A stretch of 64,000 nucleotides of DNA from Auricularia sp. M13 (taxonomy: Eukaryota; Basidiomycota; Agaricomycetes; Auriculariales; Auriculariaceae), in contig CM073193.1 of the NCBI GenBank assembly GCA_037042915.1, positions 2,666,001 through 2,730,000 on the forward strand. Reading direction: 5' to 3'. Below the pieces are notes generated by a model. That model worked only from the letters and a program-made list of their open reading frames with translations. It was not told the DNA's origin and searched no databases. Below are positions 1-42,500 of this stretch, one piece after another (position 1 is the stretch's first letter; the number at the start of each line of letters is the position of its first letter). The translations under genes were made by a program, and so were the position numbers.

Positions 1-348
1 CACGGAACTGGCTCGGCTTCCTCCTCTTCTTCTTCGTCGCATACGCACTTGCACTCGCATTCGCAATCTCACGGGCACCACGGCCAGCAGCACGGCCAGC
101 AGCACGGTCGCGGCTCGCTTCCGTCGCCGCCGGACTCGCCCAACACACCCGCTTCTTCTCATTCCTCGACAGCATTGCCTCAGTCTGCCGTCATTGTCAC
201 TCCACCGTCAAGCGACGACACGACTTCGATAGCGAGCTCGAAGACCGCTTCGTCGATGTTCTCGTCCGCCAGCGCATCCACGGGCGCGACGTCTCTCGCC
301 TTGTCATCCAGCGCACACTTCGCATTCACTTCTCGGTCTGTGTGGTAG
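1..348 (+). CDS. PCL-type cyclin, 3' part (left KDZ copy)
   Basis: This is the C-terminal low-complexity tail (Ser/His/Gln/Pro-rich, ending FTSRSVW) of the cyclin carried by the KDZ element. The window edge cuts off the cyclin box. The reading frame is open from base 1 to a stop at 346-348, and the encoded tail matches the right copy (41209-42105, minus strand). It lies upstream of the transposase gene and on the same strand, as in the right copy. Its presence in both copies shows that the cyclin is part of the transposing unit. Confidence 0.8.
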   Translation, partial: HGTGSASSSSSSSHTHLHSHSQSHGHHGQQHGQQHGRGSLPSPPDSPNTPASSHSSTALPQSAVIVTPPSSDDTTSIASSKTASSMFSSASASTGATSLALSSSAHFAFTSRSVW

Positions 349-1095
349 TAGCACGCTATCGCGCGACCGGGCGTCGTGGGCCCTGGTTGCATTCTGGAGG
401 ACGGGCAGCGATCTCGTGGCGCGACACGCGGCTCTCGGCGCAAGACCCAACGCTTTTTGCTGTTCATAACTTCTCTTCATACCCATCTTGGCAACTGCAT
501 TTCCCTTCAGACTTTTTATTCCCATACCGCGCACACCTACCTACCTTTGCATCGCTCCTCTTTCCGCTTACATTGCTCGGAACGGCCACCTCATAAATGC
601 TCCTGTGAGCGCGGTGCGGGACATCTCTCCTGGCGCAGCAGACTAATATCTTCGCCTTCATGGGCAGTGGACGTCCGCTTTTTTGAATACCTCGCGGCGA
701 CCGCGAATCGGAACCGGGTAGCATATCGAACACCGATTGTTCGCGGCCGCCGCGGAGACGGACTTCTGCTTTCACGCACCGCTCGAGCCAAGAAACGCAT
801 GTCGCACGAGTGCCTGATCGTTGTCAGTAAGGTGGAAACGTCAGTGTCATAGAATTGTGGCTGCGCCTGAGCTCTTTGGCTTCGGCGCATGCAGCACCTG
901 GCCTTCCATTCAGCTGAACATTCCTCGCGGCGACCGCGAGCGCAAGCGTGCCTCCCGCCGGTGACGGCATCTTGCGGTCGCCGCGGCGAAGGACTTGGGC
1001 AGGGATTCTTCCGGGGCCGGAAACCATTTTCGCAGTTTTTCGTCGCTGTATCCGAAAATCCCGAGCAACCCGCCTTCGCTGTCGCTGCCCCCGCC
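349..1095 (+). promoter_or_regulatory. Cyclin-transposase spacer with four 15 bp palindromes
   Basis: This intergenic stretch lies between the cyclin stop and the likely transposase start. It holds four TCGCGG-NNN-CCGCGA-type sites at 692-706, 741-755, 925-939 and 972-986. The transposase frame is open upstream to an ATG at 889, but the part before 1096 is low-complexity and contains two of the sites, so I treat it as leader. The sites could be the transposase promoter operator. The same stretch in the right copy is 40462-41208. Confidence 0.5.
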
Positions 1096-4000
1096 ATGCA
1101 AGACATTCAATCCGTCATGCCATTCCGCCTTCGCACTGCTCCGTACGCACGCAGGGCGGCCACTCACGGCGTATACATCGTTCCACCAAGTCGCCGAGTG
1201 TTGCAATTCAAGAATAAAATCGCCCGACCACTTGCACGACAAAACCGCGTGCCAGCGCCAGCCACCCCTCCAGCAGACGGCGGACAATCAAGAGCAACTA
1301 CCGTCAATCGCCAGCCCACAGCACCCACTCGTCCTGCAGTGGTCGACGAGGATGTCTTCATGGCCGACGAGACAGACGTGCCTGAGCCAAGAGTGCAACA
1401 GGTTTTCAAACTGAATATGCCCCCGCCTCGACGTGGACGGCGGGTCAGACGGGTTCCAACGGTCAAGAAGGCGCTGTTATATTCACGATGGGACGAGCTT
1501 ATACCAAGACTTCGGAAGCCACTACTAGAGTTTATGGCTGGGCGTCAGCCCCATGAACACACGCGTTGTAGTGCTCCTGGCTGCCGGGAAAGTCTGCGTC
1601 GTGTTCTATGCGTAGAATGGGATCGTAAGCACCATTTCCTGAATACATGATTACCTGACCAAGACGCTTTCAGGTTACACAGAGCAGCATTTCTTTTGCT
1701 GCCCACACAATGGCCTCGCCGAGCAGCTCGTGGCTCGTGGCTTTTTCCCATCCTCCCCAGAGTTCCCGCCGTATGCATTTTCCACAAAATTACTTGACTT
1801 CTATTACCATCTCTGGTTCCATTCTGCGGACTCAGCTATGGCTGCCGCAGCATCATTGCACGGCTTTCATAACGATCTTGGGTTTCAGTTGCAGGATTCG
1901 AAGGTGAGTGTCGTCCAGCGCTGATGGATTCTGTTAATACCTCACAGGGCAGGATGATTGATGAGGGGTACCGCCGCCCAATGCAATACGCAATTCAATG
2001 GTACGACATTCTTCGTAGCCAGATTGAAAACGATGTCGAGGACATTGTGAGCGCAAAGAGGCGTTGGGCCGACGCATGGGCAACGTTCGACCAGGAGCGC
2101 CAGCAGCCAGCAGTGCCGGACGACACTGGGCTACAGACACCGCCAGATTCTCCTCACGGACCTGCGGTTTCTCGCACACCCAGTGGGCGTGACAGTCCTC
2201 TGGAGGCGACCGACGATACCCGACCACGAGCTGAACGGCCTGCCTACGAGGGTCCAAATGCGAATCGGAATCGCTGCAGCAGCTATCTCGTATCCTGCTG
2301 TGCGATGTGCTTCGACGAGGAACATTTTGGGCGCGGGGTTGACGAGTAGGTTTTCGTCCTGCAGCTTGGGGGTTAATACTAAGTTCCTGCAGGGGGTGTG
2401 ACATTCATGTTGGGGGCGATGCAAACTTTTCGCAGCGCCACGATTTCAAGGCAGGCGATTGTCCACCATTCAAGTATCGAGGCGTCTACCAGCTGTCACC
2501 AGAGCGTGTTGCAGCCATGGAAGCGCGTCTGGAAGAAGCAGGAAAGCGCCCCCGCGGCCGGTACACGGGTGGCGTCCCAGACGAGGATCTCGACGCGTGC
2601 GAAGACGCACACACTGCCGGGACAGCGTCAAAGGCAAAGGCCAACGGAGAACGGTTTGACGACACGGGCGTATTTGCGCTCATATGTCGCCACGGCGTGC
2701 CGCTGTGTTTTATGAACATCACGGACGCCGGTGAAGGGCAGAAGTTCATGCTCACGGCCCTTGACTGGTTATCCGAACATCTTCCAGCCACCGCAACCGT
2801 CGCAGCCTATTACGATGTCGGCTGCATTACGGATCGGACACGGCAGCTGGTGCGCTGTGCCATCTTCGCGGCGACCGCGACTAACATTTGGTTCAGTATG
2901 ACGTTCTTGCCCCTGGCTTCAGTGACCGTGTGGTGTTCGTTACGTCCGCCATGCACTCCTACGCACACCAATGGACCTGCCAGCTGGTCTACAGCCCGCG
3001 CATGAAAAGGGGTATGGGCCTAACAGACGGAGAGGGTGTGGAGCGCCTTTGGTCTGCACTACGAATGATGATCCCGAAATTGAGGGCTGTATCGGTGTGT
3101 TCAACATGTCCTTGTCGCTGCGTAAGATGGAATACCGACAGCATCTCCTTTACAGCGCTGACGGCGTCTTGTTCTACTCGACCGGCAGTTGCAACGTCTC
3201 GGTCAGCGGATGCGCCGCGACCAGGGCAAGTGGGTCAGGACGACGACGAAAGGCGATCAAGAAAAAGATAAAAACGGCGACCGAGCAGCTTGCCGATAGT
3301 GGCCATTCGCGTCAGTACCTCGCCGCTGAATGGGAAAATCAGCGTGCAGCCGAGCTCTCTATTCGCAATCGTATGGCAATGTTCACACATTCGGTCAGGT
3401 ATCTGATACAGTTACAGATCCACAGACGAAGCTCAAGAACGCCTTGAAGGCAGTTCTGACTCTTCAGGAGCAGGCGGATGCTCTGGAGGATGCGATTAAC
3501 AGTGCCGAAGGCACGCTCGGTGGTGGATCCCGCAAGGCAACCATGGCCGCCAACAGGTGCATTCGAAAGCTTCGAAACTCGCAGGCTGAGCTGCTCAGCG
3601 AGGCCCAGGCGTTATACGCAACGCTGAACGTTGACCGCGAGTTCGAAGAGATTCACGGAATGGGTCTGCAGTTTACCGCGGTGCTGCTTCAGGCCTACGA
3701 CGCGAAGCGCACGTGCCGCATGATGCTGCAACGTCGTTTCCAAGAGTGGCGAATTATAGACAGTGCACAGGGTGGCAAGGGCATGCCAGTTGGTATGGAA
3801 TGGTGCCCAGCGTCCGCCACAATCATCTGACATGTTACAGGCACTAGTATTCATACTCGTACAGTGGCAGCCATGAAGAAACGCACACCAACGATACAAC
3901 GCGCAATCAAGACCTATAACGATCTTTGCGACAGGCTCGTAAAGCTGCGCCCGATTGGAAGCTCCTTCCCGCTACCACAGCCCCTCTCGACAGAGCTCAA

Positions 4001-5624
4001 GCACCTCAAAAATAACGATGCGCTCATGCAAGATGTATACATCTCGGGAAACGACGGGCCCGCACCGGCTTGGCTTGTCAATGACAGTGTACGCAAGGGC
4101 ATCCGCGCCCTCCTAACACTGGAGCGGTGCAACGAGGAGATTGCACGGTTGGATCGAGAAGCGCGTAACTTGTTACGATGGCATGCTCGTGAATTGGCTG
4201 CATTTTCTGCAGCCTGCCAAGATGAAAGATGTGTGTAATGAACAGCCTGCATTCATTCTGACGACTAATTGTACACCCAGATGCTCTGTACAGGCCATTC
4301 CTAGAGCGCGAACGGGATCGGCTCGCGCGGATGGACCTTCGCGGCTGCCGCGAAACTGTTCGGAGTCCGCCGCCACTGCTTGTCCGAGACCATCTCGTTG
4401 TCGCCCAGCCATCGCCACCGCAAACTCCTCCTCGCCCGCGCGTCCGATTCGCCGAATATAACGAGGTTCGCGAGTTCGCCTCCCCGTCCGACGAGAGTGA
4501 TTGCGAGGAGCTGGGTGACGAAGACGACGACCTTGAGGAAATGGCGCGAACAGCGAGCCCGCGCAAGCCGTACAATGACGACGATGTTATCGTTATTTCT
4601 GACGACTCGAGCTACGAATTCTCTGATAGCGAAGACGATGACATTGCAGATGGCACGCCATTCAACAGCAACCTGGTACAAGGTCCCATGCCCGCGCGGG
4701 CGTCATCCTGGGAGCTTGAAACCCTCGATTACGTGGAGGTGAGTGAAACGCGTGCTCGTCTCTACCGCGTTTTCATTGATAAAATCTTTAGACTCAACCG
4801 CAACACATTTTCCACTGGCATGAGCTTGACCAGCTTGCGGCCGCCGCGGACGATTCGCCCATTACGCGTGGCATCTGGATAGATCGCACACAGTATCTCC
4901 CGCGTACCCTCCTATCCCCGGATGCCTGGGTCCGACTTTGCACGCCAGGCCGGTGGTTGAACGACGAGGCGATCAACCGCGATGTGTGCACTGGCGCGCG
5001 AGTATCCTCTGCGTCTGAATCGTTTTTGCGTCCTCAGTTCGTACGAGATGACCTGCTACCAGGACGGGATGGGCGTGGCGGAGCAGTACCGCCGTGTCGC
5101 ACATATGCGAATCTGGGAGCGCGAGGCCGTCATCGTCCCAATCAACGAGCAAAACACGCACTGGGTGCTGGCCCTCGTCTGGCCAAGGCATGGGTATGTC
5201 GAGATATTCGACAGCCTGGCGCGTGCACACCGAGTTCGCGCTCTGGCCCTGGTATGTCCCTTCATCTTGCCTTGCATTTCTTTTTACAAACTCGCCGTAG
5301 ACTGTGTTTCGCTATTTCCGCTCAATTTCAGCGTACGCTCAGATGGTCGACCCCTGCGTTCAGTCGCTGCCCACGCAATGGAAAATGCGGCCGATGATGG
5401 TGAGCCATACTCAGCTTTAGTGCCTGTCGTATTATACTCACGGAAAGCAGGCCGAGGCGAGCCAGAGCAATGGCTCTGATTGTGGGCTGTGGGTCATGAC
5501 ATGCGTTGCAGCACTACTGAGCGGGAAGCGCGTGACCTCGTTGGTCGAGGACGATATGCCGCGTGTTCGCCGCGCACTATGTACATTAGCTCGCAGGCAT
5601 GCAGTACCAGAGCCCAATGGATGA
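1096..5624 (+). pseudogene. CxC-KDZ transposase / Ulp1 fusion, left copy (damaged)
   Basis: This is the same multi-exon gene as 35932-40461 (see there for domains). Three differences from the right copy would disable it. An Arg codon (CGA) is a TGA stop in the exon just after the DGEGVERLW block (about 3163-3165). One extra G lies near 3238, in the run that reads AAGTGGGTCAGGACG. Two bases are missing near 4979, inside the Ulp1 motif that reads WLNDEAINFAM in the right copy. The metal-binding and catalytic blocks themselves remain readable: GDANFSQRH near 2418, YDVGC near 2812, DGEGVERLW near 3030 and GSDCG near 5476. Confidence 0.8.
2850..2896 (+). other. 47 bp intron built around a 15 bp palindrome
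   Basis: The intron runs from GTGCGC to TTCAG and has a CTAAC branch-point-like motif at 2881-2885. Its centre is a perfect TCGCGGCGACCGCGA (2866-2880). The matching right-copy intron is 38661-38707. An intron of the second gene (10158-10206) has the same build. Confidence 0.7.
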
Positions 5625-6916
5625 CGCCCGTGTCTTTTACATTACTTAAGTCACTGCTACCGATGTGAGCGTTCTCCTGAAGAGTGCGTCAGATGCAGAA
5701 AAGCTATCAATGACCAGTCTGAACTAAATGGCCGGAAAACGAGGCTGTAACATGTGGTATGAACACAACAAAAGCATGAGTCCGTGGGAATGTGCTGTGT
5801 GCCTTGTCCACGCTTTTGGTGGCCCCGAAAATGAGACGAGGTCAGTAGCAGGCAGTGAGTTGACGGCGACTCAACAGCGACTGCATCAGCAGCACCGCTG
5901 CACCCATGGTCACTTGCACATTTTACTGAGGTGATGCTGTAGTGTGGGGCCGTTGTTGCTTTTCGATGTTTAGAATGCTCAGGTCTAGTGTTTCCAGTGA
6001 GTGTAAACTCGCATCGTGAAGAGGTTCATGAGCCACCAATGAACTCTCGCACACCTGCATGACAGCGCCTGGAGTGAATTCGCAGATGTAGGGGGCTACT
6101 ATTTGGCATTGAAGAAGCAGTCATGTGCACATCTACTTTCAGGGAACCGTAGTAGAGTTGCACCTTCAATGGAAGATACTGCTCATGCAGGCATGTGTAC
6201 TTCGACGCCTCAAATGTGAATGCTACTGATAAGAGACATGACACGCGGTTCATTCTAATGGGTACCATTGGAAACATGTTCTCTACCTTTTGCAAAAGCG
6301 GAAAGCTGTGTTAGCCCATGGGGGGGACGACCGCTTCTCGTCTTTACATTCTGGAGGTCTCAGAACAGCACCAGACTTGCTGAATGTACGACTGTCCACC
6401 CAACGTCTGGAAACACCCCAGGAAGTCTACAAGGAGCTTAGCCTACATGGAGACAGTGTAATGAGCTAGCACGCGTCTTGCTAACAAGTACCATGGGTGA
6501 TTATGACGGCGTTGCCCAGGAATGTGTCGACGGCAGTGCAAAGACTATTCCAGTTGAAAGTCTATATTGGAGATATAAATATCACTCCTGAAACAGTATA
6601 TTCGTTGCCTGAGACCGCCGCTACAGTGACATACAGAAGATGCTAGCGCGAGGCATTCAGAGACCAGGGTCACCTTTCTGACATCTACACGAGTTCTAAT
6701 AATGTTCTTATTACCTATGGCCACTGGAAGACTCTCTGAATACCTCAAAGCTATGGTGAAACCCTTTCGAACGAAAGCGGCTTAAGTTCTATGGCCTCGA
6801 AGGCTTTCGACGTTAGAACAACGGCGTCTGCACGCGGTTTGCAAGTCCGACAAACGACCGCTCTCGTATCTTCCTACCAGCAACACCCGCTCTTCTCGTA
6901 ACTTCAGAACCACCCA
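5625..6916 (+). other. Spacer between transposase and large gene, no gene seen
   Basis: This 1.3 kb stretch is less GC-rich than the genes around it. It has no open frame with recognisable features and no palindrome sites. It is conserved in the right copy (34640-35931). Its end next to 6917 presumably holds the promoter of the large gene. Confidence 0.5.
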
Positions 6917-9900
6917 ATGGACGTGAGTGTTCGCTAGTACTGAAGAGCATTCATGACATGCTGAAACGTGTCACAGCAAAACTCGCAAAACACTCACGAA
7001 GAGGACTACGCGCCGTATGGCATTGTCGCGGCGACCGCGACAGAAAATGCGCAACAAGCGCAACTTCGTGAGTCTGGCGGTTTGCATTCCTTTGCATTCG
7101 TTGGCTCATTGGTACGCTTACAGCATCTGCAAATACTACCCACGCGCCCGTGCAACATGAGCCAATGCTTGTCGCGCACCAGGGGGCGTAATGCAGCGCT
7201 GGGGCTGCGCTTCAATCCCACCGCGCGGAACAAGACCCCGCTGGTTACGTGGCGCAGTTGCAACAGCCTGACATGCGAGGCTCAGCCCCAGGCGGGGCGC
7301 CGCAGTTCTCGCGGCCTGATACCGCGCCGCCACCCACGTATACAAGGCATGCCATGACGGGCACCGCTGCAATGCCTGCAGCGCGCGCCTACGGCACCCC
7401 CACCCGGTGCTCGTGATCGCCTTCAGCAACACAGCGTCACTGGGCCAGCGACCGCCCAGACACTTTCCGAAGTTCGCGCCGACTTCATACGCACACAGGG
7501 CGGCGCAATGCAGCCTGCACAGGCGCACAATTCCTTTGCTGTTCAGCGGGTCGCTATGGACGGTCAATTCGGAGGTCGCGAGACCGCGCGCCCATCTGCC
7601 AGCGCCCTGCTCGACTGGACACCACCTGCGGGCTCCGCGCCCGCGCCCACACCTCCCACTGCCGCCGCCTATGCTGGTAATCCCAGGGCTATGCCTCGAG
7701 AGACGCAATACGCTCTCAATGGCCATCAGGAGCGTTACAAGCGCCGCTGCGCCAGGCGACCATGCAGGAGGCTTCGCAACAGATTGCAAACGCTCGGGCT
7801 GGGCATGGTACGCCACAAGTCGCGCCTGCCCCAGAGGGCCACCTGTTAGTGCACACGCCGCACGTCCCAGTACCAGACGGGCGAGGGACCTTACGAGCAA
7901 CTGCACCGACTGCACCGGTTGCACAGACAGCCCAGGTCGCGATGGCCGCTTCAGGAAGTGGCGACATCGCACCTGCGTCCGGCCCAACACGCTCCCACTC
8001 GTCTTATACCTCCACGCAGAACGGTAACGACACGCGCGCCATGGGCAGAGCTGCCACCACGATGTTCGGTTCGGTGGACTCGCAGCGTGACCAAGCCCTC
8101 GGCGGCCGCGACCCCGCGCACCTAAACGCGCAGTTCAATGCGCTGCGTGCTGTCGGCCCTGCCGAACCTACTGCTCCCTTGGCAGACACATCTGACCGCA
8201 TCGGCCTTCGCGACGCGCAGGCACTCGCGCCCGGGTCAGCCTATCTTTACCCCGCGCCAGTGCATACGCCCGACGTCCAGGCACAAGACGAATTATGCCC
8301 GGAACAAGTGCCTGCATTTTCGCATGCCGGAGATGGTGCAGTCCGCTACGCCCTGTGGTTCAACTCCATAAACCGCACGGGCGGTATCGCGGACGAACAG
8401 CTTCGCAAGTGCGTCGCGGAGCGCTTGAAGCTCATTGCCGACGACATGACGGTCGGCGATCTGTGCGCCATAGAAGACGACATGCGTCGATGGGTTCCAC
8501 AGGCAGCAGAGCTCATGCGGCCCCTCACGATTCGAGTCAGGACGCCACCTCCGTGCACTATCCCTCCGGACAACAATGGGGAATACACGCATCGCGTATT
8601 TCAGCCGACGCCGCAGCAATATGGACCGAGTGGCCACCCCGAATGGCTCAACCATGATGCCGGCCATCATATTGCCAACTGTAAGTCGACTTTTGCCCAG
8701 CCTCTTCCAGGTCGGAGGTTGACGGGTTTTTCAGCTTCGCGGATGCCCCAGAACGCGCGGCAGGTGACCGGCGCCATTGTCAACCTCGCGCACACGTTCA
8801 ACATGCTGCATCGCTCGCGGTCGCCGCGAGAGCGCCAGTATCCTGCTCCCGGCGCGGATGGTGCACGTCAAGGCTCTCCGACGCCGCGCACGGTCGATCC
8901 ACGAGACACGCTGCTGGTTCAAGAGGGCGCCAACGCAGCAGGCCAGTCGTCCTCTGCCCAGCAGGAGCACACATACGCGGACAACTATGACGCCCCCGGC
9001 TTTGACGACGCCAATGCGGACGAAACCATGTTGGACGCGCCCACCAATACGCCGGGCGCTGTCCCGTCACAGGCGCCGCCGAATGCGTCGTCAAACACCT
9101 CGACATACGCAATGACTGGCCCAACGGCTGCACCGCCGCAGCCACCCGCGCGAAGTTTTCAGACGCCACCGGGAAGGCTCGCTCGCGCGGTCAGCCTGCC
9201 TTGCTACATAGCGGCAACCCGGAGGAGGACGGTCTCCTTGACTCCGTTCACCCACTGTATCCGCTCAACCCGCGCGCGCGCCTTGCAACGCGCCGCAAGC
9301 GCGATGAAGAGACTGCGAATGAAATTTTCGCTTTCTTTTGCAAAATCCGCGAGCAGATCTTCACCTACGCTCGCGAGCTCGACGAAGATCCTGAATGCTT
9401 TCTGCGGGAGGCGGTTCTGGGCACGGGAATTGCAGACAGCTTCTGGAATCTCTTCCAGCAGTTCCACAGCATGCCCCCTGGTCGTAAGTCCATTTTCCTT
9501 GCAGCCGCGCCTTGCTAACATCGAGCAGAGTGGCACGTCCGCGACGAGTTCGACTTTGGTCAGCAGACTGCCAAGGACGCGTGGAAGTGGTTCAAGGAGC
9601 AGGTCAACTATGAACACATCCTGCTCCGCTTCGCGTACGCATTTCCCGACGGCATCGCCATAAAAACGGTCGCTCAAATGGGCAAATACTTTCGCGGTCT
9701 GCGAGAGCATCTGCATGACATTGTAAGTGATACATACACTACACAGGGCTTTCAACTAACTTGTGCTTGCAGCAGGGACACCTAGCAGCGTGCTATGGTT
9801 TGCAGATGTCTGTCGTCGTCGCCGGACAGAACGCGACTACTGACCAGGGGCTCGTTTTTGCTGACTGGGCCCCCATGGCCCGCGGCTTCCTTAACATGTT

Positions 9901-12281
9901 CAAGATTCCGGAGGAGACGTTCACGCGCTCATACGCCACCTACTGCCAGTAAGCCCGCTCTACAGCTGGAGCCGACAGGGTTCTGACTCCGTGAAGACAC
10001 AGGGCGGACTTGGTTGAGATCGCGGAGATGCTCGGTCACCCGATTGACCGGGCGCTGCTGGACCTTGTCACAGAGCCCCGGCTGACGGACCCCGCGAAGT
10101 ACGAGGGCTGGGAGCTCGGCGCGATTTGGAACGACGTGATCAACTCACTTCTGGAAGGTGCGCATCTTTCGCGGTCGCCGCGAAACGGCTTCTGATTCTC
10201 GTGCAGCGGCAAATCCAACCCTCCCACCGATTAAGAACCGCCATACAGAGTGTCAGTTTGTCTCGCATCTCGCGGTGTGCGACCGCAACGACATTTGTAT
10301 AGGCAACTTTCCGTGGGCGATTCCGTTGCCTTACACGCCGGGCCTTTACACCGACAAAGGCCTGCTCTGCTACGGGAAGTTGGAGACCAACTACCTCATC
10401 CAGTGGCTTTCTATGCGCGACCCAAAGGATCCCACTCGCCCTCATCCCCTTGGCCCTCGTCTGTTTTTCGCCGGTGATCGCACGGTGGCCGGCACTTCGC
10501 TCCCAGTGCTTCGCACCAGCGCTGTCGACTATCCGGATTCGCCGTGGCATGGGCGCATGTTGTCCTATTCTCTCCAGGACCACAGGATTATCTCGCCGAC
10601 GCTGAGCGAGTTGCGCGCCATGCGCGAGAGCTCGGGCGTCATCAAGGATGTGTACAAGTTCAAGAGTATCGGTCCTGAGCCTCGCCAGCCAAGCGAGGCC
10701 ACCACTAAGCCGCGGGCACGGCGTGCATCGAAGCAGTATCGCGAGTTGCTCAGCAGCGACGACGACGATAACGAGGAGGACAACGTGCCGATTGAGCAGG
10801 AGCCAGCGGCCGCCGCGAGCGAGACTGGGACGCGCTATGAGGCACTCGGCAGCGACGTTTCCCGCCCCTCTTCGCCCGAGCGTGCGCCTGCCCAGGCACC
10901 GCCTGCTAGGGCACCTCTTACCTCGATCCTCCGAAAGCCCGAAGCACCACCGGTGCGTGCGCGCAGCGTCGAGCACCATCTTGGCCCTGAGCCCGACGGT
11001 GACGATGATGGTATGTTCCCCTGTTTTTCCTCTTTTACAACTCATGCTAATCCGGTTTCTGCAGCGCTCTGGCTCCCCCCGTCTGGCCGTGATACACCAG
11101 GATTTCCCGGCGGCGTTCCCGACAGCTTTTGGCCCAAGTTCTGCGTTGACGCTCGCCTGATGTCAAAGTCCGAGCAAGCGCAGTACAAGAACCGTCTGAC
11201 GAAGGCGCGCATCGCGGAGGGAAAGAAGATTCTTGCTGAGCGCGCCAAGCGCGCAAAGGACGACGCCGCGGCCGCCAAGGCGCACGACGAAGACGCTATG
11301 GAGATCGATGTCATTCCGCCCGTCGCGCCTAAGAAGAAGACTACGCGCAAGACGAAGACCAAGGGCAAGAAGGCACAGGAGCCTCAGGAAGAGGAGGATC
11401 GCGCTCCTGTCGCGACCACGTCCAAGCGCAAGAAGGGCGCGGCGGCGACACCGGCACCTCCTGCTGAGCCAAGCGTTGCACCTGCGACGCGCCGCTCCAC
11501 TGCGGCCGCCAGAGCAGCTGCTGCATCGCCCACGCGCCCAACTGCGTCGTCTCCCACTCGGCCGGCGACCGCGGCTGCTGGTCGTGAGACCGCCGCAGCA
11601 CCATCGCGCGCCCGTCAAGACGCAGTGGCCTCGCAGCCTGGCGCAGGCCCTACATCGTCCTCGGCGAAGCGTGCCCGTGATGCGGACGACGAGGACGATT
11701 TCGAGGCCTCTTTCATCGCGCCGCGCAAGTTGGCCCGCATGCAAGGACAGGCGAACCCGACTACGCCGCTGCGCCGCGGTGCGCAGCCCGCCGCAACGGG
11801 CCTTACTCCACGCCCGCATGCCACTGCCAGTGCAGGCACCGGCCTGACGCCTCGCCCCGACAAGGTCGAACCCGCAAAAACGGGCCTGACACCTGCGCCT
11901 CAACCGCGCGGTCGCTCTGTGTCCCGTACGCCGGCCAGGCGTGTCGTCGAGGTTTCCATACCGTCGCGCGCAGCCACTCCCGCGCGTGCGCCTTCTGTGC
12001 CCCCCGCTGAAAAGCGCTTTACCCTCGAGATGACGGAGAAACCGTTTGGCGATCCTCCTGCGTGGCTCCGTTTCGTCCCCCAGCAGTTTGCGCCGGAGGC
12101 CGTGCAAACTGCCTTCAACAGGCTGCGCGTCGACATCAAGCGCACCAACCGCCGGTTGAACGAAGCTTACTGCAAGGTCATCGAAGACCTTGCGGTGGCC
12201 TGGCCAGAGAGTGTCGAGTTCCCAGAAGACCTCGACAGTCTCTATGAAATCGTTTCGAACCGTGCACCCGCCGCGACGTGA
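6917..12281 (+). pseudogene. Large KDZ-associated protein of unknown function, left copy (damaged)
   Basis: This is the same gene as 29271-34639, which is described in full there. The left copy has short length differences from the right copy: near 7190 (a G run and a GC repeat), near 7380 (one GC unit less), near 7730 (an AA run shortened), near 9150 and near 9510. These break the frame in the N-terminal half. The C-terminal half (10207-12281) is one long open frame here, whereas the right copy has two one-base deletions there. Neither copy is therefore perfect as given. Most differences lie in short runs, so sequencing error is possible. Confidence 0.7.
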
Positions 12282-12446
12282 ATGTAGAGCTCCCTATCTT
12301 GCCTGAACTTTGACTCGTAAACGATCCCAATCGATTTGAAATATAATTTTTCTTTCGTTGTAATTGTTGCACCTCAAATACTGGCAAGAAGTCAAATGAA
12401 AGCTGATTTCCATAATCTGACACCCGTTGCTCGTCCAAGTCGTATC

Positions 12447-12630
12447 TCGCGGCAGCCGTGAAGAGGCTGTATCAAGTCAAACTGTTGTTCGCGGCGGCCG
12501 CGAGCAGTCCGCATCATGCTTAATTATTATTCGCGGCGGCCGCGAGTCTGGTCAATGACATCAACTCACGCTTCGCGGCGACCGCGAAGCGTTCAACATG
12601 TCACCAGCATTTCATTCAGAACCGCCGCGA
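12447..12630. repeat. Palindrome array with exact 42 bp spacing (left copy)
   Basis: Four 15 bp sites start at 12447, 12489, 12531 and 12573, exactly 42 bp apart. A fifth half-site ends at 12630, in step to within 1 bp. The middle three are TCGCGG-NNN-CCGCGA with intact arms, and the first has one changed base. The DNA between the sites is unrelated in sequence, so this is not a simple tandem repeat. 42 bp is about four turns of B-DNA, which would put bound proteins on one face. The mirror array in the right copy is 28921-29104. Confidence 0.85.
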
Positions 12631-12870
12631 AGACGGCCTGGGACGTGCAACGGGTGTTAGAATATGATGCTGCGTAAAATACGTCGTTGAGGCTGGGCAG
12701 CGCACGTTGCACTCGTGACCTCGTTGTTTAAGCAGAGCTTGGACTGTACAAGCCTTCCTGAAACCTACATGAGCATGTTCCTTGATGAATACAACATCAC
12801 ACGACGTTAGTGGTGTTAAACTGACTGCACTTTCATCAATGAGTCACACGACCATTGCGTACAGCATATA

Positions 12871-13270
12871 ACGTTCTTGAGGCTAATCTGGAGTTTGGCC
12901 GTTGTCAACCGTATTTGTTGTTCATAAATTCAGACTAACCTACTGAATGCGAGCTCGTGTTCAATAATTTTAATCTTGCAACACTTGCAACAAGTAAAGC
13001 ATTAGCTCATGAGGCCAATCCGGCGTTCAATGACTACAGGCAATAGGTTAGCTCCTGAGACCATTCGGACGATCAATTGCACGAGATAATGTTTACCTCC
13101 AGTACAACAGTAGCTCTTGAGGCCAATCTGGGGTTCGATCATTTCAATACGATAGTGCTTTCGACCGGTAATCGAGTGGCTCTTCCGGCCAATCTGACGT
13201 TAGATACTTGTAATGAGGCAATGCTTTATGAGAGTCAAGCAGTAGTTCTTGAGGCCAATCTGGTGTTCGG
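12871..13270 (+). repeat. Degenerate subterminal repeat, about 65 bp unit (left copy)
   Basis: Six diverged copies of a block like AGCTCTTGAGGCCAATCTGG recur near 12874, 13006, 13051, 13113, 13179 and 13244. The last four are about 62-66 bp apart. A single related unit (TTTTTGAGGCTAACCTGG) lies near the other end of the element, at about 42569. Such repeats near transposon ends are often transposase binding sites. That role is inferred here. Confidence 0.6.
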
Positions 13271-13562
13271 TGCTCTGATGATTATCCTGTTCAGCACTCA
13301 CCTTTTCATTGCCATCGACGTATGCACTACTAATATATCGGTGCTGCCAGCTGCATATAACATTGATTGCGACGGTAATGTCTGAGATACCTGCGGCGAC
13401 GACAACACTCAGTTCTTTGTGAGGGTGTCTCGGCGACCGCGAGAATAGGGAATGCGACATCATCGCAAAGCATGGAGCCAGCGAAGTCATTCCGTATTCA
13501 GGCGAAAAAGGCCACAATTGAACCGGCGTGCCAGGGGTATATAAGTCGTCATTTTGCATTAC

Positions 13563-13664
13563 TCGCGGCGGCCGCGAGATATCTTTTGCATTGCTTGATA
13601 CCTACCGCGGCGACCGCCAATGCGCCAGCAGTGATGTTAGTCAACCCTCTCGGCGGCCGAGACC
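13563..13664. repeat. Three palindromes spaced 42-43 bp (left copy)
   Basis: A perfect site at 13563-13577 is followed 42 bp later by a two-mismatch site (13605) and 43 bp later by a shortened one (CTCGGCGGCCGAG, about 13649-13661). Further single sites lie at 13428-13442, 13772-13786, 14135-14149 and inside the TIR at 14189-14203. The mirror region in the right copy is about 27887-27990. Confidence 0.65.
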
Positions 13665-14188
13665 TCGTCTTCCTCTGCCCTACCGCGTTGACGTGCAGTA
13701 GAACTCGCACTAGGAGCTATGCGGAAAGACATTTGGTCTGCAGGAGGGAAAGCGCCTTGACGCTGTCTATCCCGCGGCCGCCGCGAAAGGACAGCACGCC
13801 TGGATAATGCAGGCTGTCGATCGTGCGAGAGTTCAGTTATTGGGGGGTTCTTTCCATTCGTAACAAAATTCATTCAGCAGGCAGACAGCATACATAGTCG
13901 CCGCAATGGGAGTAGAGGATGAGCAACGAAGCAAGGAATTCAGAACCCGTTCAGCAGTGCTAGCGACAAGGATGTGGCTGTTGATGCACATATTAGTGGT
14001 TGTAGCTGTAGGTTGAGTCAAAATGGTGTTGTCTGGTTGGTAGGACGGTTCGCTGTGGCGTATGCCCATGTCTTCCGAGGGCAGGAAGTCACTATTGTGG
14101 TGGCGGGAGGCTTGGATCAAAGCCTTGGTTCAATGTCGCGGCGGCCGCAACAATCAGTAGCGGGTTGCTGGCTGATGGATAAGCCTTG

Positions 14189-14306
14189 TATCGGCGGCCG
14201 CGGGCATTGTTTGTGTGCTGGTGATGTCATTTGATGGAGGCCTTGGGTCAGCCATCACTGGTCTCGGCTAGCACCCCGAGGGGTCCTAAACAGATTGCCT
14301 GGGGTG
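14189..14306 (+). repeat. Terminal inverted repeat, left KDZ copy (inner end)
   Basis: This is identical in layout to both TIRs of the right copy: an outer 99 bp block ending CAGATTGCCTGGGGTG, then about 5 unmatched bases, then a conserved palindrome (TATCGGCGGCCGCG). It contains a short inner palindrome around CCCCGAGGGG. Confidence 0.9.
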
Positions 14307-16331
14307 GGGACGGTCAAGAACTGTTCATCGCCGAGGGGTACCATAAACCGCTCGACGTACCATTCTCGGTTCTGCTGCAAATCGCCCACTATTCGCACGG
14401 GCGTGGTGGTCTCCGCAGGGACGAGCGTGTCTTCCCAGGCTCTGACGGCACCGTTGGCCAACGCTTTTTTACGGCGGTACCGATTGGCTCTGTTCCTGCG
14501 GTGCGACATCCTTCTGACGTAGAAGGGGTCTTGGTTTCTGACCACCTTGAGCGATCTGGCGTACGCGACGTCCCTGTCGAGGCCTTGCTCGATCGGTCCC
14601 ACTGTGGACTGGGCTTTGAAAGAGAACCCAGTCTCGCCCACGACCACTTTGGTACCTAGGTCCACGCTCCGCAGAACGCTGAGCTCGTGGTTGAGATGGA
14701 AGTCCTCTCCCAAGAGTACTTCCACCGTCATGTTCGGAACCACGTAGAGCTCGGCTTGGAAGACTAGCCAAGTCCCGTCCTCCGCTTGTATGCGCACGGG
14801 CATGTCGACGTACCCCTTAATGCGCGGAGATTGATCCGTAAGCTGAGCGAGCGATATCTTGAGTCCAGAGTGGATCTTGGGCGCATGCCGCATTCTGTGG
14901 AGGTATTGCTCAGACACGAGCGAGATACTCGCTCCCGAATCGAGTCTGAGCGTCAGGGCTAACTCGTGTTCCGACCCCAACCGGCCATGGGCAGATAGCA
15001 CAGTCATCCCTACGGACAAGTGCCCTGCTGGCGTCGTGCGTTTAGCGCGAACGTGATACTCTTTCCGGACTGGAGGAGGCAACGTTGTCTCGGCTGCCAT
15101 TGCCGAAGCGAGAATACTGCGTTGTGACGTCTCGAAGTAACCATCCCCTCCTTCTTCGAGCAGGTATGCGCGCGCTTTGGCGGTACCAGCATACCAGACG
15201 TGAAAGGCGTCACGCACTTCTTGTACACGCTCGACCTGGGGTTCCGTCACCTCCAGGTCGACCAGTTGCGCGACTCGCAAGACGGGCGAGAACTTGATCA
15301 GGTCGGTGGAAGCAGCACGCGGATTATCCATCCTCGGGGTAGCTTCCCGATAAGTAGCGCGGTGCGGGGCGTCCTCGAAGAGTATCAAGTCGTCTTCGCC
15401 TAGGCCGCTGGTATGATCGAGCCACTCATCCCAGCGATCGCGTACTTCTTCCATCCAGGGGCTGCCTGATGGGTCCCTCCGCAGGGCCATCCTGTCTACT
15501 TCGCCGTCTATAGGAGCTACGGGGGAGATTTCGCCGCCCGCGACATCGATCCTTGGATTCCAATCCGTCGCCCTCGCCGTCGGGAGCAGGTCATCGCTCG
15601 TGTCGGCCAGCAAAACTTCGGGCGTAGCATCCTCTAGTATGCAAGTCCCGCTGTTGGGTAGCTTGGGAGTCCCCTCGTACCAGTCGAGCCATTCGTCACG
15701 AACTTCCTCGAAAGACACGCGGGGACGCCTAGGGTCAGAGCGTTGACACGAAGCGTTATCACGTCGCTCCCCGATGTCGGAAACCTCGTCTTCACTCAGC
15801 AGAAGGTACTTGTCTTCAAGCTTCAGATGAGGGGACAGCTTGAGCCACGCAAACCATTCATCTTCTACCTCTTCTATGGCGACGCAAGGGAGCCCCCCTT
15901 TCGCGTCTGCGCTATTTGCTCTGGCAGTCAGGGGCATGACCAGCTCGTCTCCCGAACTCCAGTCATCGCCGTCTTCACTCCCGTCATCGTACGCAGAAAA
16001 CTTCTTCTTATTCAAGCCGTTCTTGTAAGCAGTGTACGCGACATTATAGAGCAGGTCTTCCTCCTTTGAAGCACCATACTCAGCGAGGAAGGCAGACAAT
16101 CCTTTCTTCTTGGCCTCGAATTCAGCGTAGTGCCGACACTCGCGATTCCAGTGCGGCCCTCCGCATGCGCGGCAAGCCGAAGGCGGGGGGTTGGAGCTGG
16201 CTCGATTGTCCTTGGGGAACGGATATTGCTTGGGCGGCGCGCGTTTGTTCTTGTCAGCTAGATAGACTTCGATGAGCTGTGCCGCCGAGACGAAGTCGTT
16301 GTCGGGCAGCGGTCCCGGCGCCAGGTCCGGG
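14307..16331 (-). mobile_element. LTR retroelement A, fragment with zinc knuckle and protease
   Basis: This is a minus-strand piece of an older LTR retroelement lying between the left KDZ copy and the Gypsy insertion. Near 16180-16110 it encodes a CCHC zinc knuckle (ACRACGGPHWNREC). Then follow an acidic stretch with a motif of the EVRDEW type repeated four times (starting near 15874, 15709, 15451 and 15220) and a retropepsin-like domain with DSGAS near 14941. Other parts of the element are at 24942-27246 and 43450-44404. Reverse transcriptase and integrase are not in the window and would lie left of base 1. The element is a fossil interrupted by three insertions. Confidence 0.75.
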
Positions 16332-17054: not shown

Positions 17055-17086
17055 GTATTTCGTAACTCGAGCTCCGCTCGAGTTGT

Positions 17087-18907: not shown

Positions 18908-18954
18908 CGGGCAGTTCCCCACGGGCATCTAGGGCCAACTGCGTCAAGCCCAAG

Positions 18955-27246: not shown

Positions 27247-27364
27247 CACCCCAGGCAATCTGTTTAGGACCCCTCGGGGTGCTAGCCGAGACCAGTGATG
27301 GCTGACCCAAGGCCTCCATCAAATGACATCACCAGCACACAAACAATGCCCGCGGCCGCCGATA
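27247..27364 (+). repeat. Terminal inverted repeat of right KDZ copy
   Basis: Starts CACCCCAGGCAATCTG. It matches the reverse complement of 43332-43449 over 99 bp with one mismatch seen, then about 5 unmatched bases, then a shared CGCGGCCGCCGATA palindrome block. Confidence 0.93.
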
Positions 27365-27886
27365 CAAGGCTTATCCATCAGCCAGCAACCCGCTACTGAT
27401 TGTTGCGGCCGCCGCGACATTGAACCAAGGCTTTGATCCAAGCCTCCCGCCACCACAATAGTGACTTCCTGCCCTCGGAAGACATGGGCATACGCCACAG
27501 CGAACCGTCCTACCAACCAGACAACACCATTTTGACTCAACCTACAGCTACAACCACTAATATGTGCATCAACAGCCACATCCTTGTCGCTAGCACTGCT
27601 GAACGGGTTCTGAATTCCTTGCTTCGTTGCTCATCCTCTACTCCCATTGCGGCGACTATGTATGCTGTCTGCCTGCTGAATGAATTTTGTTACGAATGGA
27701 AAGAACCCCCAATAACTGAACTCTCGCACGATCGACAGCCTGCATTATCCAGGCGTGCTGTCCTTCGCGGCGGCCGCGGGATAGACAGCGTCAAGGCGCT
27801 TTCCCTCCTGCAGACCAAATGTCTTTCCGCATAGCTCCTAGTGCGAGTTCTACTGCACGTCAACGCGGTAGGGCAGAGGAAGACGA

Positions 27887-27990
27887 GGTCTCGGCCGCCG
27901 AGAGGGTTGACTAACATCACTGCTGGCGCATTGGCGGTCGCCGCGGTAGGTATCAAGCAATGCAAAAGATATCTCGCGGCCGCCGCGAGT
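27887..27990. repeat. Three palindromes spaced 42-43 bp (right copy)
   Basis: Mirror of 13563-13664: CTCGGCCGCCGAG, then GGCGGTCGCCGCGG, then TCGCGGCCGCCGCGA (about 27974-27988). Confidence 0.6.
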
Positions 27991-28280
27991 AATGCAAAAT
28001 GACGACTTATATACCCCTGGCACGCCGGTTCAATTGTGGCCTTTTTCGCCTGAATACGGAATGACTTCGCTGGCTCCATGCTTTGCGATGATGTCGCATT
28101 CCCTATTCTCGCGGTCGCCGAGACACCCTCACAAAGAACTGAGTGTTGTCGTCGCCGCAGGTATCTCAGACATTACCGTCGCAATCAATGTTATATGCAG
28201 CTGGCAGCACCGATATATTAGTAGTGCATACGTCGATGGCAATGAAAAGGTGAGTGCTGAACAGGATAATCATCAGAGCA

Positions 28281-28680
28281 CCGAACACCAGATTGGCCTC
28301 AAGAACTACTGCTTGACTCTCATAAAGCATTGCCTCATTACAAGTATCTAACGTCAGATTGGCCGGAAGAGCCACTCGATTACCGGTCGAAAGCACTATC
28401 GTATTGAAATGATCGAACCCCAGATTGGCCTCAAGAGCTACTGTTGTACTGGAGGTAAACATTATCTCGTGCAATTGATCGTCCGAATGGTCTCAGGAGC
28501 TAACCTATTGCCTGTAGTCATTGAACGCCGGATTGGCCTCATGAGCTAATGCTTTACTTGTTGCAAGTGTTGCAAGATTAAAATTATTGAACACGAGCTC
28601 GCATTCAGTAGGTTAGTCTGAATTTATGAACAACAAATACGGTTGACAACGGCCAAACTCCAGATTAGCCTCAAGAACGT
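28281..28680 (-). repeat. Degenerate subterminal repeat (right copy)
   Basis: Mirror of 12871-13270. The block CCAGATTGGCCTCAAGAGCT and variants recur six times, mostly 62-66 bp apart. Confidence 0.6.
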
Positions 28681-28920
28681 TATATGCTGTACGCAATGGT
28701 CGTGTGACTCATTGATGAAAGTGCAGTCAGTTTAACACCACTAACGTCGTGTGATGTTGTATTCATCAAGGAACATGCTCATGTAGGTTTCAGGAAGGCT
28801 TGTACAGTCCAAGCTCTGCTTAAACAACGAGGTCACGAGTGCAACGTGCGCTGCCCAGCCTCAACGACGTATTTTACGCAGCATCATATTCTAACACCCG
28901 TTGCACGTCCCAGGCCGTCT

Positions 28921-29104
28921 TCGCGGCGGTTCTGAATGAAATGCTGGTGACATGTTGAACGCTTCGCGGTCGCCGCGAAGCGTGAGTTGATGTCATTGAC
29001 CAGACTCGCGGCCGCCGCGAATAATAATTAAGCATGATGCGGACTGCTCGCGGCCGCCGCGAACAACAGTTTGACTTGATACAGCCTCTTCACGGCTGCC
29101 GCGA
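28921..29104. repeat. Palindrome array with exact 42 bp spacing (right copy)
   Basis: Mirror of 12447-12630. Full sites start at 28964, 29006, 29048 and 29090, each 42 bp from the next, with a half-site at the low-coordinate end (about 28921). Confidence 0.85.
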
Positions 29105-29270
29105 GATACGACTTGGACGAGCAACGGGTGTCAGATTATGGAAATCAGCTTTCATTTGACTTCTTGCCAGTATTTGAGGTGCAACAATTACAACGAAAGA
29201 AAAAATTATATTTCAAATCGATTGGGATCGTTTACGAGTCAAAGTTCAGGCAAGATAGGGAGCTCTACAT

Positions 29271-32200
29271 TCACGTCGCGGCGGGTGCACGGTTCGAAAC
29301 GATTTCATAGAGACTGTCGAGGTCTTCTGGGAACTCGACACTCTCTGGCCAGGCCACCGCAAGGTCTTCGATGACCTTGCAGTAAGCTTCGTTCAACCGG
29401 CGGTTGGTGCGCTTGATGTCGACGCGCAGCCTGTTGAAGGCAGTTTGCACGGCCTCCGGCGCAAACTGCTGGGGGACGAAACGGAGCCACGCAGGAGGAT
29501 CGCCAAACGGTTTCTCCGTCATCTCGAGGGTAAAGCGCTTTTCAGCGGGGGGCACAGAAGGCGCACGCGCGGGAGTGGCTGCGCGCGACGGTATGGAAAC
29601 CTCGACGACACGCCTGGCCGGCGTACGGGACACAGAGCGACCGCGCGGTTGAGGCGCAGGTGTCAGGCCCGTTTTGCGGGTTCGACCTTGTCGGGCGAGG
29701 CGTCAGGCCGGTGCCTGCACTGGCAGTGGCATGCGGGCGTGGAGTAAGGCCCGTTGCGGCGGGCTGCGCACCGCGGCGCAGCGGCGTAGTCGGGTTCGCC
29801 TGTCCTTGCATGCGGGCCAACTTGCGCGGCGCGATGAAAGAGGCCTCGAAATCGTCCTCGTCGTCCGCATCACGGGCACGCTTCGCCGAGGACGATGTAG
29901 GGCCTGCGCCAGGCTGCGAGGCCACTGCGTCTTGACGGGCGCGCGATGGTGCTGCGGCGGTCTCACGACCAGCAGCCGCGGTCGCCGGCCGAGTGGGAGA
30001 CGACGCAGTTGGGCGCGTGGGCGATGCAGCAGCTGCTCTGGCGGCCGCAGTGGAGCGGCGCGTCGCAGGTGCAACGCTTGGCTCAGCAGGAGGTGCCGGT
30101 GTCGCCGCCGCGCCCTTCTTGCGCTTGGACGTGGTCGCGACAGGAGCGCGATCCTCCTCTTCCTGAGGCTCCTGTGCCTTCTTGCCCTTGGTCTTCGTCT
30201 TGCGCGTAGTCTTCTTCTTAGGCGCGACGGGCGGAATGACATCGATCTCCATAGCGTCTTCGTCGTGCGCCTTGGCGGCCGCGGCGTCGTCCTTTGCGCG
30301 CTTGGCGCGCTCAGCAAGAATCTTCTTTCCCTCCGCGATGCGCGCCTTCGTCAGACGGTTCTTGTACTGCGCTTGCTCGGACTTTGACATCAGGCGAGCG
30401 TCAACGCAGAACTTGGGCCAAAAGCTGTCGGGAACGCCGCCGGGAAATCCTGGTGTATCACGGCCAGACGGGGGGAGCCAGAGCGCTGCAGAAACCGGAT
30501 TAGCATGAGTTGTAAAAGAGGAAAAACAGGGGAACATACCATCATCGTCACCGTCGGGCTCAGGGCCAAGATGGTGCTCGACGCTGCGCGCACGCACCGG
30601 TGGTGCTTCGGGCTTTCGGAGGATCGAGGTAAGAGGTGCCCTAGCAGGCGGTGCCTGGGCAGGCGCACGCTCGGGCGAAGAGGGGCGGGAAACGTCGCTG
30701 CCGAGTGCCTCATAGCGCGTCCCAGTCTCGCTCGCGGCGGCCGCTGGCTCCTGCTCAATCGGCACGTTGTCCTCCTCGTTATCGTCGTCGTCGCTGCTGA
30801 GCAACTCGCGATACTGCTTCGATGCACGCCGTGCCCGCGGCTTAGTGGTGGCCTCGCTTGGCTGGCGAGGCTCAGGACCGATACTCTTGAACTTGTACAC
30901 ATCCTTGATGACGCCCGAGCTCTCGCGCATGGCGCGCAACTCGCTCAGCGTCGGCGAGATAATCCTGTGGTCCTGGAGAGAATAGGACAACATGCGCCCA
31001 TGCCACGGCGAATCCGGATAGTCGACAGCGCTGGTGCGAAGCACTGGGAGCGAAGTGCCGGCCACCGTGCGATCACCGGCGAAAAACAGACGAGGGCCAA
31101 GGGGATGAGGGCGAGTGGGATCCTTTGGGTCGCGCATAGAAAGCCACTGGATGAGGTAGTTGGTCTCCAACTTCCCGTAGCAGAGCAGGCCTTTGTCGGT
31201 GTAAAGGCCCGGCGTGTAAGGCAACGGAATCGCCCACGGAAAGTTGCCTATACAAATGTCGTTGCGGTCGCACACCGCGAGATGCGAGACAAACTGACAC
31301 TCTGTATGGCGGTTCTTAATCGGTGGGAGGGTTGGATTTGCCGCTGCACGAGAATCAGAAGCCGTTTCGCGGCGACCGCGAAAGATGCGCACCTTCCAGA
31401 AGTGAGTTGATCACGTCGTTCCAAATCGCGCCGAGCTCCCAGCCCTCGTACTTCGCGGGGTCCGTCAGCCGGGGCTCTGTGACAAGGTCCAGCAGCGCCC
31501 GGTCAATCGGGTGACCGAGCATCTCCGCGATCTCAACCAAGTCCGCCCTGTGTCTTCACGGAGTCAGAACCCTGTCGGCTCCAGCTGTAGAGCGGGCTTA
31601 CTGGCAGTAGGTGGCGTATGAGCGCGTGAACGTCTCCTCCGGAATCTTGAACATGTTAAGGAAGCCGCGGGCCATGGGGGCCCAGTCAGCAAAAACGAGC
31701 CCCTGGTCAGTAGTCGCGTTCTGTCCGGCGACGACGACAGACATCTGCAAACCATAGCACGCTGCTAGGTGTCCCTGCTGCAAGCACAAGTTAGTTGAAA
31801 GCCCTGTGTAGTGTATGTATCACTTACAATGTCATGCAGATGCTCTCGCAGACCGCGAAAGTATTTGCCCATTTGAGCGACCGTTTTTATGGCGATGCCG
31901 TCGGGAAATGCGTACGCGAAGCGGAGCAGGATGTGTTCATAGTTGACCTGCTCCTTGAACCACTTCCACGCGTCCTTGGCAGTCTGCTGACCAAAGTCGA
32001 ACTCGTCGCGGACGTGCCACTCTGCTCGATGTTAGCAAGGCGCGCGGCTGCAAGGAAAATGGACTTACGACCAGGGGGCATGCTGTGGAACTGCTGGAAG
32101 AGATTCCAGAAGCTGTCTGCAATTCCCGTGCCCAGAACCGCCTCCCGCAGAAAGCATTCAGGATCTTCGTCGAGCTCGCGAGCGTAGGTGAAGATCTGCT

Positions 32201-34639: not shown

Positions 34640-35931
34640 TGGGTGGTTCTGAAGTTACGAGAAGAGCGGGTGTTGCTGGTAGGAAGATACGAGAGCGGTC
34701 GTTTGTCGGACTTGCAAACCGCGTGCAGACGCCGTTGTTCTAACGTCGAAAGCCTTCGAGGCCATAGAACTTAAGCCGCTTTCGTTCGAAAGGGTTTCAC
34801 CATAGCTTTGAGGTATTCAGAGAGTCTTCCAGTGGCCATAGGTAATAAGAACATTATTAGAACTCGTGTAGATGTCAGAAAGGTGACCCTGGTCTCTGAA
34901 TGCCTCGCGCTAGCATCTTCTGTATGTCACTGTAGCGGCGGTCTCAGGCAACGAATATACTGTTTCAGGAGTGATATTTATATCTCCAATATAGACTTTC
35001 AACTGGAATAGTCTTTGCACTGCCGTCGACACATTCCTGGGCAACGCCGTCATAATCACCCATGGTACTTGTTAGCAAGACGCGTGCTAGCTCATTACAC
35101 TGTCTCCATGTAGGCTAAGCTCCTTGTAGACTTCCTGGGGTGTTTCCAGACGTTGGGTGGACAGTCGTACATTCAGCAAGTCTGGTGCTGTTCTGAGACC
35201 TCCAGAATGTAAAGACGAGAAGCGGTCGTCCCCCCCATGGGCTAACACAGCTTTCCGCTTTTGCAAAAGGTAGAGAACATGTTTCCAATGGTACCCATTA
35301 GAATGAACCGCGTGTCATGTCTCTTATCAGTAGCATTCACATTTGAGGCGTCGAAGTACACATGCCTGCATGAGCAGTATCTTCCATTGAAGGTGCAACT
35401 CTACTACGGTTCCCTGAAAGTAGATGTGCACATGACTGCTTCTTCAATGCCAAATAGTAGCCCCCTACATCTGCGAATTCACTCCAGGCGCTGTCATGCA
35501 GGTGTGCGAGAGTTCATTGGTGGCTCATGAACCTCTTCACGATGCGAGTTTACACTCACTGGAAACACTAGACCTGAGCATTCTAAACATCGAAAAGCAA
35601 CAACGGCCCCACACTACAGCATCACCTCAGTAAAATGTGCAAGTGACCATGGGTGCAGCGGTGCTGCTGATGCAGTCGCTGTTGAGTCGCCGTCAACTCA
35701 CTGCCTGCTACTGACCTCGTCTCATTTTCGGGGCCACCAAAAGCGTGGACAAGGCACACAGCACATTCCCACGGACTCATGCTTTTGTTGTGTTCATACC
35801 ACATGTTACAGCCTCGTTTTCCGGCCATTTAGTTCAGACTGGTCATTGATAGCTTTTCTGCATCTGACGCACTCTTCAGGAGAACGCTCACATCGGTAGC
35901 AGTGACTTAAGTAATGTAAAAGACACGGGCG
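34640..35931 (-). other. Spacer between transposase and large gene, no gene seen
   Basis: Mirror of 5625-6916: less GC-rich, no convincing open frame, no palindrome sites. It should contain the end of the transposase transcript and the promoter of the large gene. Confidence 0.5.
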
Positions 35932-42105: not shown

Positions 42106-42353
42106 AAGACGACGATCAGGGCGACATGCAGTGAGATGTTTGGTGGGACTGTGCGCACTGAAGAAGCAGTCCCAAAGCCTGATGCTGGTGCAGGTGCAGG
42201 CGGCGCCGTTTGTTGGGGTTTTGGAGCCCTCGCGGGTCTGGCGCAGTAGTGAAGGCGGGTCTAGTGAAAGACATATGTATTCCCCTACGTGGGATTTGGT
42301 GTGGGCGTGCGGTAGGTCACACCCAGACCGTCGGTGGTGCAGTTCGAAAGCTC

Positions 42354-42500
42354 ACGCGGCCGCCGCGAAGTAAGTCTACGCGGCTACCTCCGTGATTCTC
42401 GCGGTCGCCGCGACGTAATACTCGGCCTCCTCCGTTATTCCTGCGGTCGCCGCGACGCTGCTTCACTTTGGTACAGTTGGCTCTGCGGTCGCCGGGACCC
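42354..42500. repeat. Palindrome array near the other KDZ end, 42-45 bp spacing
   Basis: Four sites start at 42354, 42399, 42441 and 42483 (spacings 45, 42, 42). The second is a perfect TCGCGGTCGCCGCGA and the others have one to three changed bases. The array lies upstream of the cyclin gene, so it could serve as its control region as well as a transposase site. Confidence 0.8.

Follow-up and report, generated by a model that had tools for sequence, protein, structure and literature searches.

KDZ transposon copies and their genes

The window, by which we mean the whole 64,000-nucleotide stretch of Auricularia sp. M13 DNA that was analysed, holds two copies of one large transposon in opposite orientations. 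Copy B is complete, with terminal inverted repeats (TIRs) of ca. 118 bp and an 8-bp target site duplication (TSD); copy A has one end outside the window. Over 14.3 kb (27247-41556 in copy B) the copies are 99.85% identical, with 4 substitutions and 18 gap bases in 13 gap openings, and thus they do not count as independent evidence: the analysis concerns one element family in two near-identical copies. The differences are mostly short gaps, which may be sequencing errors. When the flanks of copy B were joined as an empty site, a reading frame ran through the joint for 501 codons, as far as the examined stretch extends, in support of the boundaries assigned to this copy. The element and its main features are as follows.

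27247..43449, - strand: full-length KDZ transposon copy B of 16,203 bp, with its genes on the - strand; ends CACCCCAGGC...GCCTGGGGTG, TSD GTCACGTC on both sides
1..14307, + strand: KDZ transposon copy A, truncated at the window start and in the opposite orientation to copy B
27247..27364, no strand assigned: TIR of copy B; its inner edge holds a degenerate site
43332..43449, no strand assigned: TIR of copy B; its inner edge holds a degenerate site
41209..42105, - strand: cyclin ORF (Cyclin_N, E 6.1e-10; Pho80 is the sole match among solved sequences in the PDB, E 0.00038)
36077..40461, - strand: CxC1-KDZ-Ulp1 transposase, spliced; first four introns placed, later exons as open frames only
31887..34406, - strand: 839-aa ORF, with no Pfam match (E 0.1) or PDB match (E 1)
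29542..31392, - strand: 616-aa ORF, with no Pfam match (E 0.1) or PDB match (E 1)

All of the element's genes, namely the cyclin ORF, the spliced transposase, and the 839-aa and 616-aa ORFs, lie on one strand. The KDZ transposase domain (PF18758) was matched with an E-value of 6.4e-41 on a spliced 602-aa part of the transposase, the first four introns of which are 44-49 nt long, and it was also matched in two single exons. On its N-terminal side is a CxC1 domain (E 9.7e-8; 32.6 bits against a curated cut-off of 26.9), while CxC2 and CxC3 scored below their cut-offs on the spliced transposase; an exon for a Ulp1-type protease (E 6.4e-10) follows the KDZ domain. Thus, the KDZ context that the original prediction gave to the arrays described below is borne out at the protein level. 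CxC1 is the only cysteine-cluster domain in the 16 ORFs (of 84 stop-to-stop ORFs) and one spliced protein that were scanned, and no member of the Zn2Cys6 family was matched in that set. A single-sequence structure model of a 200-residue region of the 616-aa ORF was unusable, with a mean pLDDT of 34. The Pho80-like cyclin ORF is possibly a captured host gene; our literature search found no paper linking KDZ transposons with cyclin cargo. Searches for relatives in non-fungal collections gave three pattern stretches in viral contigs, via the KDZ exon, and six stretches in genome contigs, via the 602-aa spliced part, none of which was confirmed.

Copy B interrupts a long reading frame (24859-27246 and 43458-44060). 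Between the two copies lies a Ty3-type LTR retrotransposon, at about 16332-24941, with two repeat stretches in its LTRs that are 100% identical. A 129-bp unit is present in two tandem copies at 25789-26026, within the flank reading frame. The scan of the window for tRNA and Rfam matches gave none.

Dyad sites and their distribution

The densest array of a 15-bp dyad, TCGCGG-N3-CCGCGA, lies in the noncoding right end of the element, downstream of the last large ORF (end at 12281 in copy A). As originally predicted, there are four such palindromes 42 bp apart: the first, at 12447, matches 11 of 12 arm bases, and those at 12489, 12531, and 12573 match all 12, giving start-to-start steps of 42, 42, and 42. 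The predicted fifth half-site, in step to within 1 bp, is also present (CCGCGA, 12625-12630); it is equivalent to a full site starting at 12616, for a step of 43. The whole array sits ca. 1.7-1.9 kb from its element terminus and is bounded by 26-bp inverted repeats, between which it forms a dyad with its best center at 12538.5, the midpoint of the third of the five sites being 12538. Elsewhere in the window these 26-bp repeats recur only in the other copy, the next best match agreeing at 18 of 26 bases. The sites and arrays are listed below.

12447..12630, + strand: main array, copy A; four sites in 42-bp steps, then a half-site after a further 43 bp
28921..29104, - strand: main array, copy B counterpart
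12411..12436, + strand: 26-bp inverted repeat, left arm bounding the main array, copy A (copy B 29115-29140)
12641..12666, - strand: 26-bp inverted repeat, right arm bounding the main array, copy A (copy B 28885-28910)
13563..13662, + strand: second array at the main-array end, copy A, three sites starting at 13563, 13605, and 13648 (steps 42, 43)
27889-27988: second array at the main-array end, copy B counterpart
42354..42497, - strand: array at the other end, copy B, four sites starting at 42354, 42399, 42441, and 42483 (steps 45, 42, 42); partly tandem repeat
42832..42888, - strand: two sites with a 42-bp step, other end, copy B, starting at 42832 and 42874; linker unrelated to neighboring DNA
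27350..27417, no strand assigned: two sites with a 53-bp step at one terminal repeat, copy B
43279..43346, no strand assigned: two sites with a 53-bp step at the opposite terminal repeat, copy B
40571..40865, - strand: four sites in the interval that separates the cyclin ORF from the transposase reading frame, with steps of 49 and 47 within two pairs
38677..38691, - strand: perfect site within intron 4 of the transposase gene (predicted, 47 nt)

Since the main array at 12447-12630 and that at 28921-29104 are the same array in near-identical inverted copies, the latter is no second witness. The further arrays that had been reported near 42354-42500, 42833-42889, and 13563-13664 all exist, with steps of 45, 42, and 42, of 42, and of 42 and 43, respectively; the first two do lie at the opposite end, albeit that of copy B, the same end of copy A being outside the window. 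In copy B, each terminal repeat has a site at its inner edge, and a second site follows 53 bp farther inward. A second subterminal repeat, with a CCAAT-like core (GGCCAATCTGG), shares the main array's end, where it forms a degenerate array at 28281-28678 (copy B) with steps of 66, 66, 108, and 132 bp; a weaker copy lies near the other end, at about 42567-42593. Its 70-nt units are 61-70% alike over their whole length, and thus it is a worn tandem repeat.

The dyad is enriched in the element. With up to one mismatch, the window holds 68 instances of its core (CGCGGNNNCCGCG), compared with an expectation of 10.85, and 0 of 100 shuffles gave as many; eight pairs of perfect cores lie 28-58 bp apart, start to start (three in copy A and five in copy B; 0 of 100 shuffles). 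Sites matching at least 11 of 12 bases number 22 in the 16.2-kb element and zero in 33.5 kb of flank; at a threshold of 10 of 12 the counts are 32 and 7, and in 29 of these 32 element sites the central three bases are CGA, CGG, CCG, TCG, CTG, or CAG. TCGCGG-N3-CCGCGA is also the commonest inverted 6-mer pair of the element, with 13 copies, whereas no inverted 6-mer pair (spacer 0-8) occurs more than once in the flank. Half-sites have a density of 7.4 per kb in the noncoding DNA of the element, 2.3 per kb in the rest of it, and 1.4 per kb in the flank.

The sites are, however, not confined to the element's ends, because only 6 of the 13 perfect sites fall in the two noncoding ends and the other 7 are internal; a purely terminal distribution is therefore rejected. 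In copy B, sites occur in the noncoding DNA at each end, and all seven of the 42-bp steps are terminal. One internal perfect site is in frame within the 839-aa ORF and is translated as SRSPR; that site might therefore be a product of codon use alone.

This distribution bears on two alternative functions for the sites. The first, which we consider quite unlikely, is that they serve, over the full length of the element, to recruit an anti-silencing protein that it encodes, by analogy with VANC of VANDAL transposons; the element would thereby escape silencing by the host, with the spacing aiding cooperative binding. The spread of sites over the element, including the seven internal perfect ones and the one in an intron, would be expected on that account, and the available text of PMC5735166 describes VANC motifs that build up in the noncoding parts of VANDAL elements, often as tandem repeats. 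The VANC21 motif, YAGTATTAY, is nevertheless dissimilar to the dyad, and CpG decay as a sign of methylation was not seen, the observed/expected ratio being 1.06 in site-free noncoding DNA of the element and 1.20 in the flank.

The second is that a host regulator, e.g. a zinc-cluster or cell-cycle factor, binds the sites as enhancer or promoter elements of the element's genes. The CGG-N3-CCG core resembles the sites of zinc-cluster (Zn2Cys6) proteins, and the position of four sites in the interval from the cyclin ORF to the transposase reading frame would suit such elements. We nonetheless regard this as quite unlikely: the densest array is downstream of the last large ORF, and no site of at least 11 of 12 bases occurs in the 33.5 kb of flank, where, short as it is, host targets would be expected.

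Spacing of the sites and origin of the linkers

We collected the adjacent gaps of 15-60 bp from the three noncoding stretches of one element copy, counting sites that match at least 9 of 12 bases. The 14 gaps are 42 (seven times), 53 (twice), 39, 43, 45, 47, and 49 bp. In 20,000 random placements the commonest gap, whatever its length, occurred at most four times, so the claim that the 42-bp phasing is non-random holds. The 9/12 threshold was picked after the sites had been seen, and under stricter ones the 42-bp share is 6 of 10 short gaps (10/12) and 4 of 6 (11/12). A binomial value of 2e-8 is less fair than the placement test, which allows any equal spacing, because it chose 42 after the spacing had been seen; both tests retain pairs made by tandem duplication. 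In unrelated loci, 9 of 132 close pairs (viral, among the matches listed) and 2 of 50 (prokaryote) are 42 bp apart. The viral gaps are mostly multiples of three, and close pairs in unrelated DNA mostly follow the codon step, without a special peak at 42 bp.

Regular spacing could also be a relic. If a 42-bp unit had been tandemly duplicated and its linkers had then decayed, the palindromes might have survived through use, or through the easy copying of CG-rich palindromes, and the exact spacing would have no function of its own. We compared 27-nt stretches of all seven 42-bp linkers with their neighbors in both directions, ungapped and gapped (background mean 6.7 matches). Three of the seven look like old tandem copies of neighboring DNA: the linker at 42399-42441 matches its neighbor at 18 of 27 bases (p 0.0001), in a region (42355-42457) that scores as a tandem repeat with a 42-bp period; between linkers R1-R2 and R2-R3, 15 of 27 bases agree (p 0.0013; p 0.23 with gaps). 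The second subterminal repeat at the main-array end, itself a worn 66-bp tandem array, is a further point in favor of such an origin.

The other four linkers show no ungapped match to either neighbor above background (smallest p 0.12), although one has a gapped score with p 0.039, uncorrected for about 28 comparisons, and only 1 of 21 linker-linker comparisons passes p 0.05. The DNA between the sites, described originally as unrelated, is thus unrelated in four cases and looks related in three. On linker identity, tandem repetition is rejected for those four and may apply to the other three, so it accounts for only part of the pattern. Furthermore, DNA worn past any resemblance should have lost its exact length as well, which suggests that the 42-bp spacing has been kept by selection. 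The 53-bp pair, likewise, is present at both ends even though the two linkers agree at only 13 of 38 bases. Taken together, we consider worn tandem repeats an unlikely explanation for the arrays as a whole.

A candidate reader and comparison with known transposons

The reading that we favor, and hold to be just about probable, is that the dyads are sites for a dimeric protein encoded by the element, perhaps the transposase acting through CxC1, that pairs or packages the ends. The likeliest reader of the 15-bp dyads would be the transposase, through its N-terminal CxC1 cysteine cluster, with one of the two large uncharacterised proteins as the alternative. CxC1 is the leading candidate because it is the only cysteine-cluster domain in the ORFs scanned and because Iyer et al. 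(2014), according to the available text of PMC12062965, hypothesised that the zinc-chelating domain of KDZ elements recognises specific DNA or chromatin proteins. With spacings of about four turns (42 bp) or five turns (53 bp), several dimers would sit side by side on one face of the DNA, and the loaded dimers would then hold or pair the ends of the 16-kb element for transposition.

Several observations do not fit this reading well. The prediction that every dimer lies on one face assumes DNA of about 10.5 bp per turn, at which spacings of 42 and 53 bp fit, but gaps of 39, 45, 47, and 49 bp are out of helical phase. The internal perfect sites are unlike a purely terminal array, and the distance of the main array from the terminus is large for a transposase site. 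Because of the internal sites, packaging, regulation, or anti-silencing along the whole element may share the role.

A more specific proposal, which we regard as somewhat unlikely, is that the DNA of KDZ transposons provides a scaffold, mirror-symmetric and in phase with the helix, for the assembly of a filament or synaptic complex by the CxC1 transposase. Such a scaffold would comprise the five dimer sites, about four turns apart, between the 26-bp inverted repeats, together with the 53-bp pairs at both terminal repeats. If this were true, the scaffold would amount to a DNA-recognition code of the KDZ superfamily, for which our literature search gave no description of end recognition. The 15-bp dyad with its preferred 42-bp step offers a concrete probe for whether CxC1 reads DNA, and the 42-bp spacing a geometry that can be tested for how the ends of so large an element might be paired.

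The element belongs to the KDZ (Kyakuja-Dileera-Zisupton) superfamily: like fungal KDZ elements, it combines a KDZ domain and an N-terminal-side CxC domain, here CxC1, with TIRs and an 8-bp TSD. KDZ elements are active in fungi, and the available text of PMC12810828 describes Cryptococcus KDZ1 (about 11 kb, 241-bp TIRs, 8-bp TSDs), KDZ2 (9.2 kb, 139-bp TIRs), and KDZ3 (10 kb, 169-bp TIRs), with TSDs of 4-8 bp. Compared to these descriptions, the present element is larger (16.2 kb), has a shorter TIR, and carries a Ulp1-type protease domain and a cyclin ORF. Two Kyakuja families of Laccaria, as far as the available text of PMC12730594 describes them, have a 7-bp TSD, CA..TG ends, and no TIRs. 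The CA..TG ends are shared, but the 8-bp TSD and the TIR of about 118 bp set the present element apart from the Kyakuja branch as so described. The word "subterminal" is absent from the main text of both papers, and a literature search that left most subscription papers outside its range gave no description of subterminal arrays in KDZ elements, a weak indication that such arrays are new. Subterminal repeats read by element proteins are already known in hAT and CACTA transposons.

In the hAT element Hermes, according to the available text of PMC10368747, an element protein binds subterminal repeats; the sites are 4-bp AAG(T/C) motifs concentrated at the tips, and two of them form a quasi-palindrome bound by a zinc (BED) domain. 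The present element is similar in having many short sites near both ends that are arranged differently at each end. It differs from that description in that the sites are 15-bp dyads, often at exact 42-bp steps and reaching 1.9 kb inward, in an element of another superfamily with CxC1 instead of BED.

The CACTA element Spm/En, as described in the available text of PMC2613891, encodes TNPA, which binds subterminal motifs, and the reader protein differs between elements. Both are large elements with motifs repeated in their subterminal regions, the reader here being putative. Perfect sites are also internal in the present element, in contrast to Spm/En as described there, and that text describes no fixed spacing. 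With VANDAL elements and VANC, as described in the available text of PMC5735166, the likeness is to a short motif that has accumulated in one transposon family, partly by tandem repetition; the VANC21 motif, however, is no such dyad, whereas the sites described here keep a 42-bp step without linker homology in four cases.
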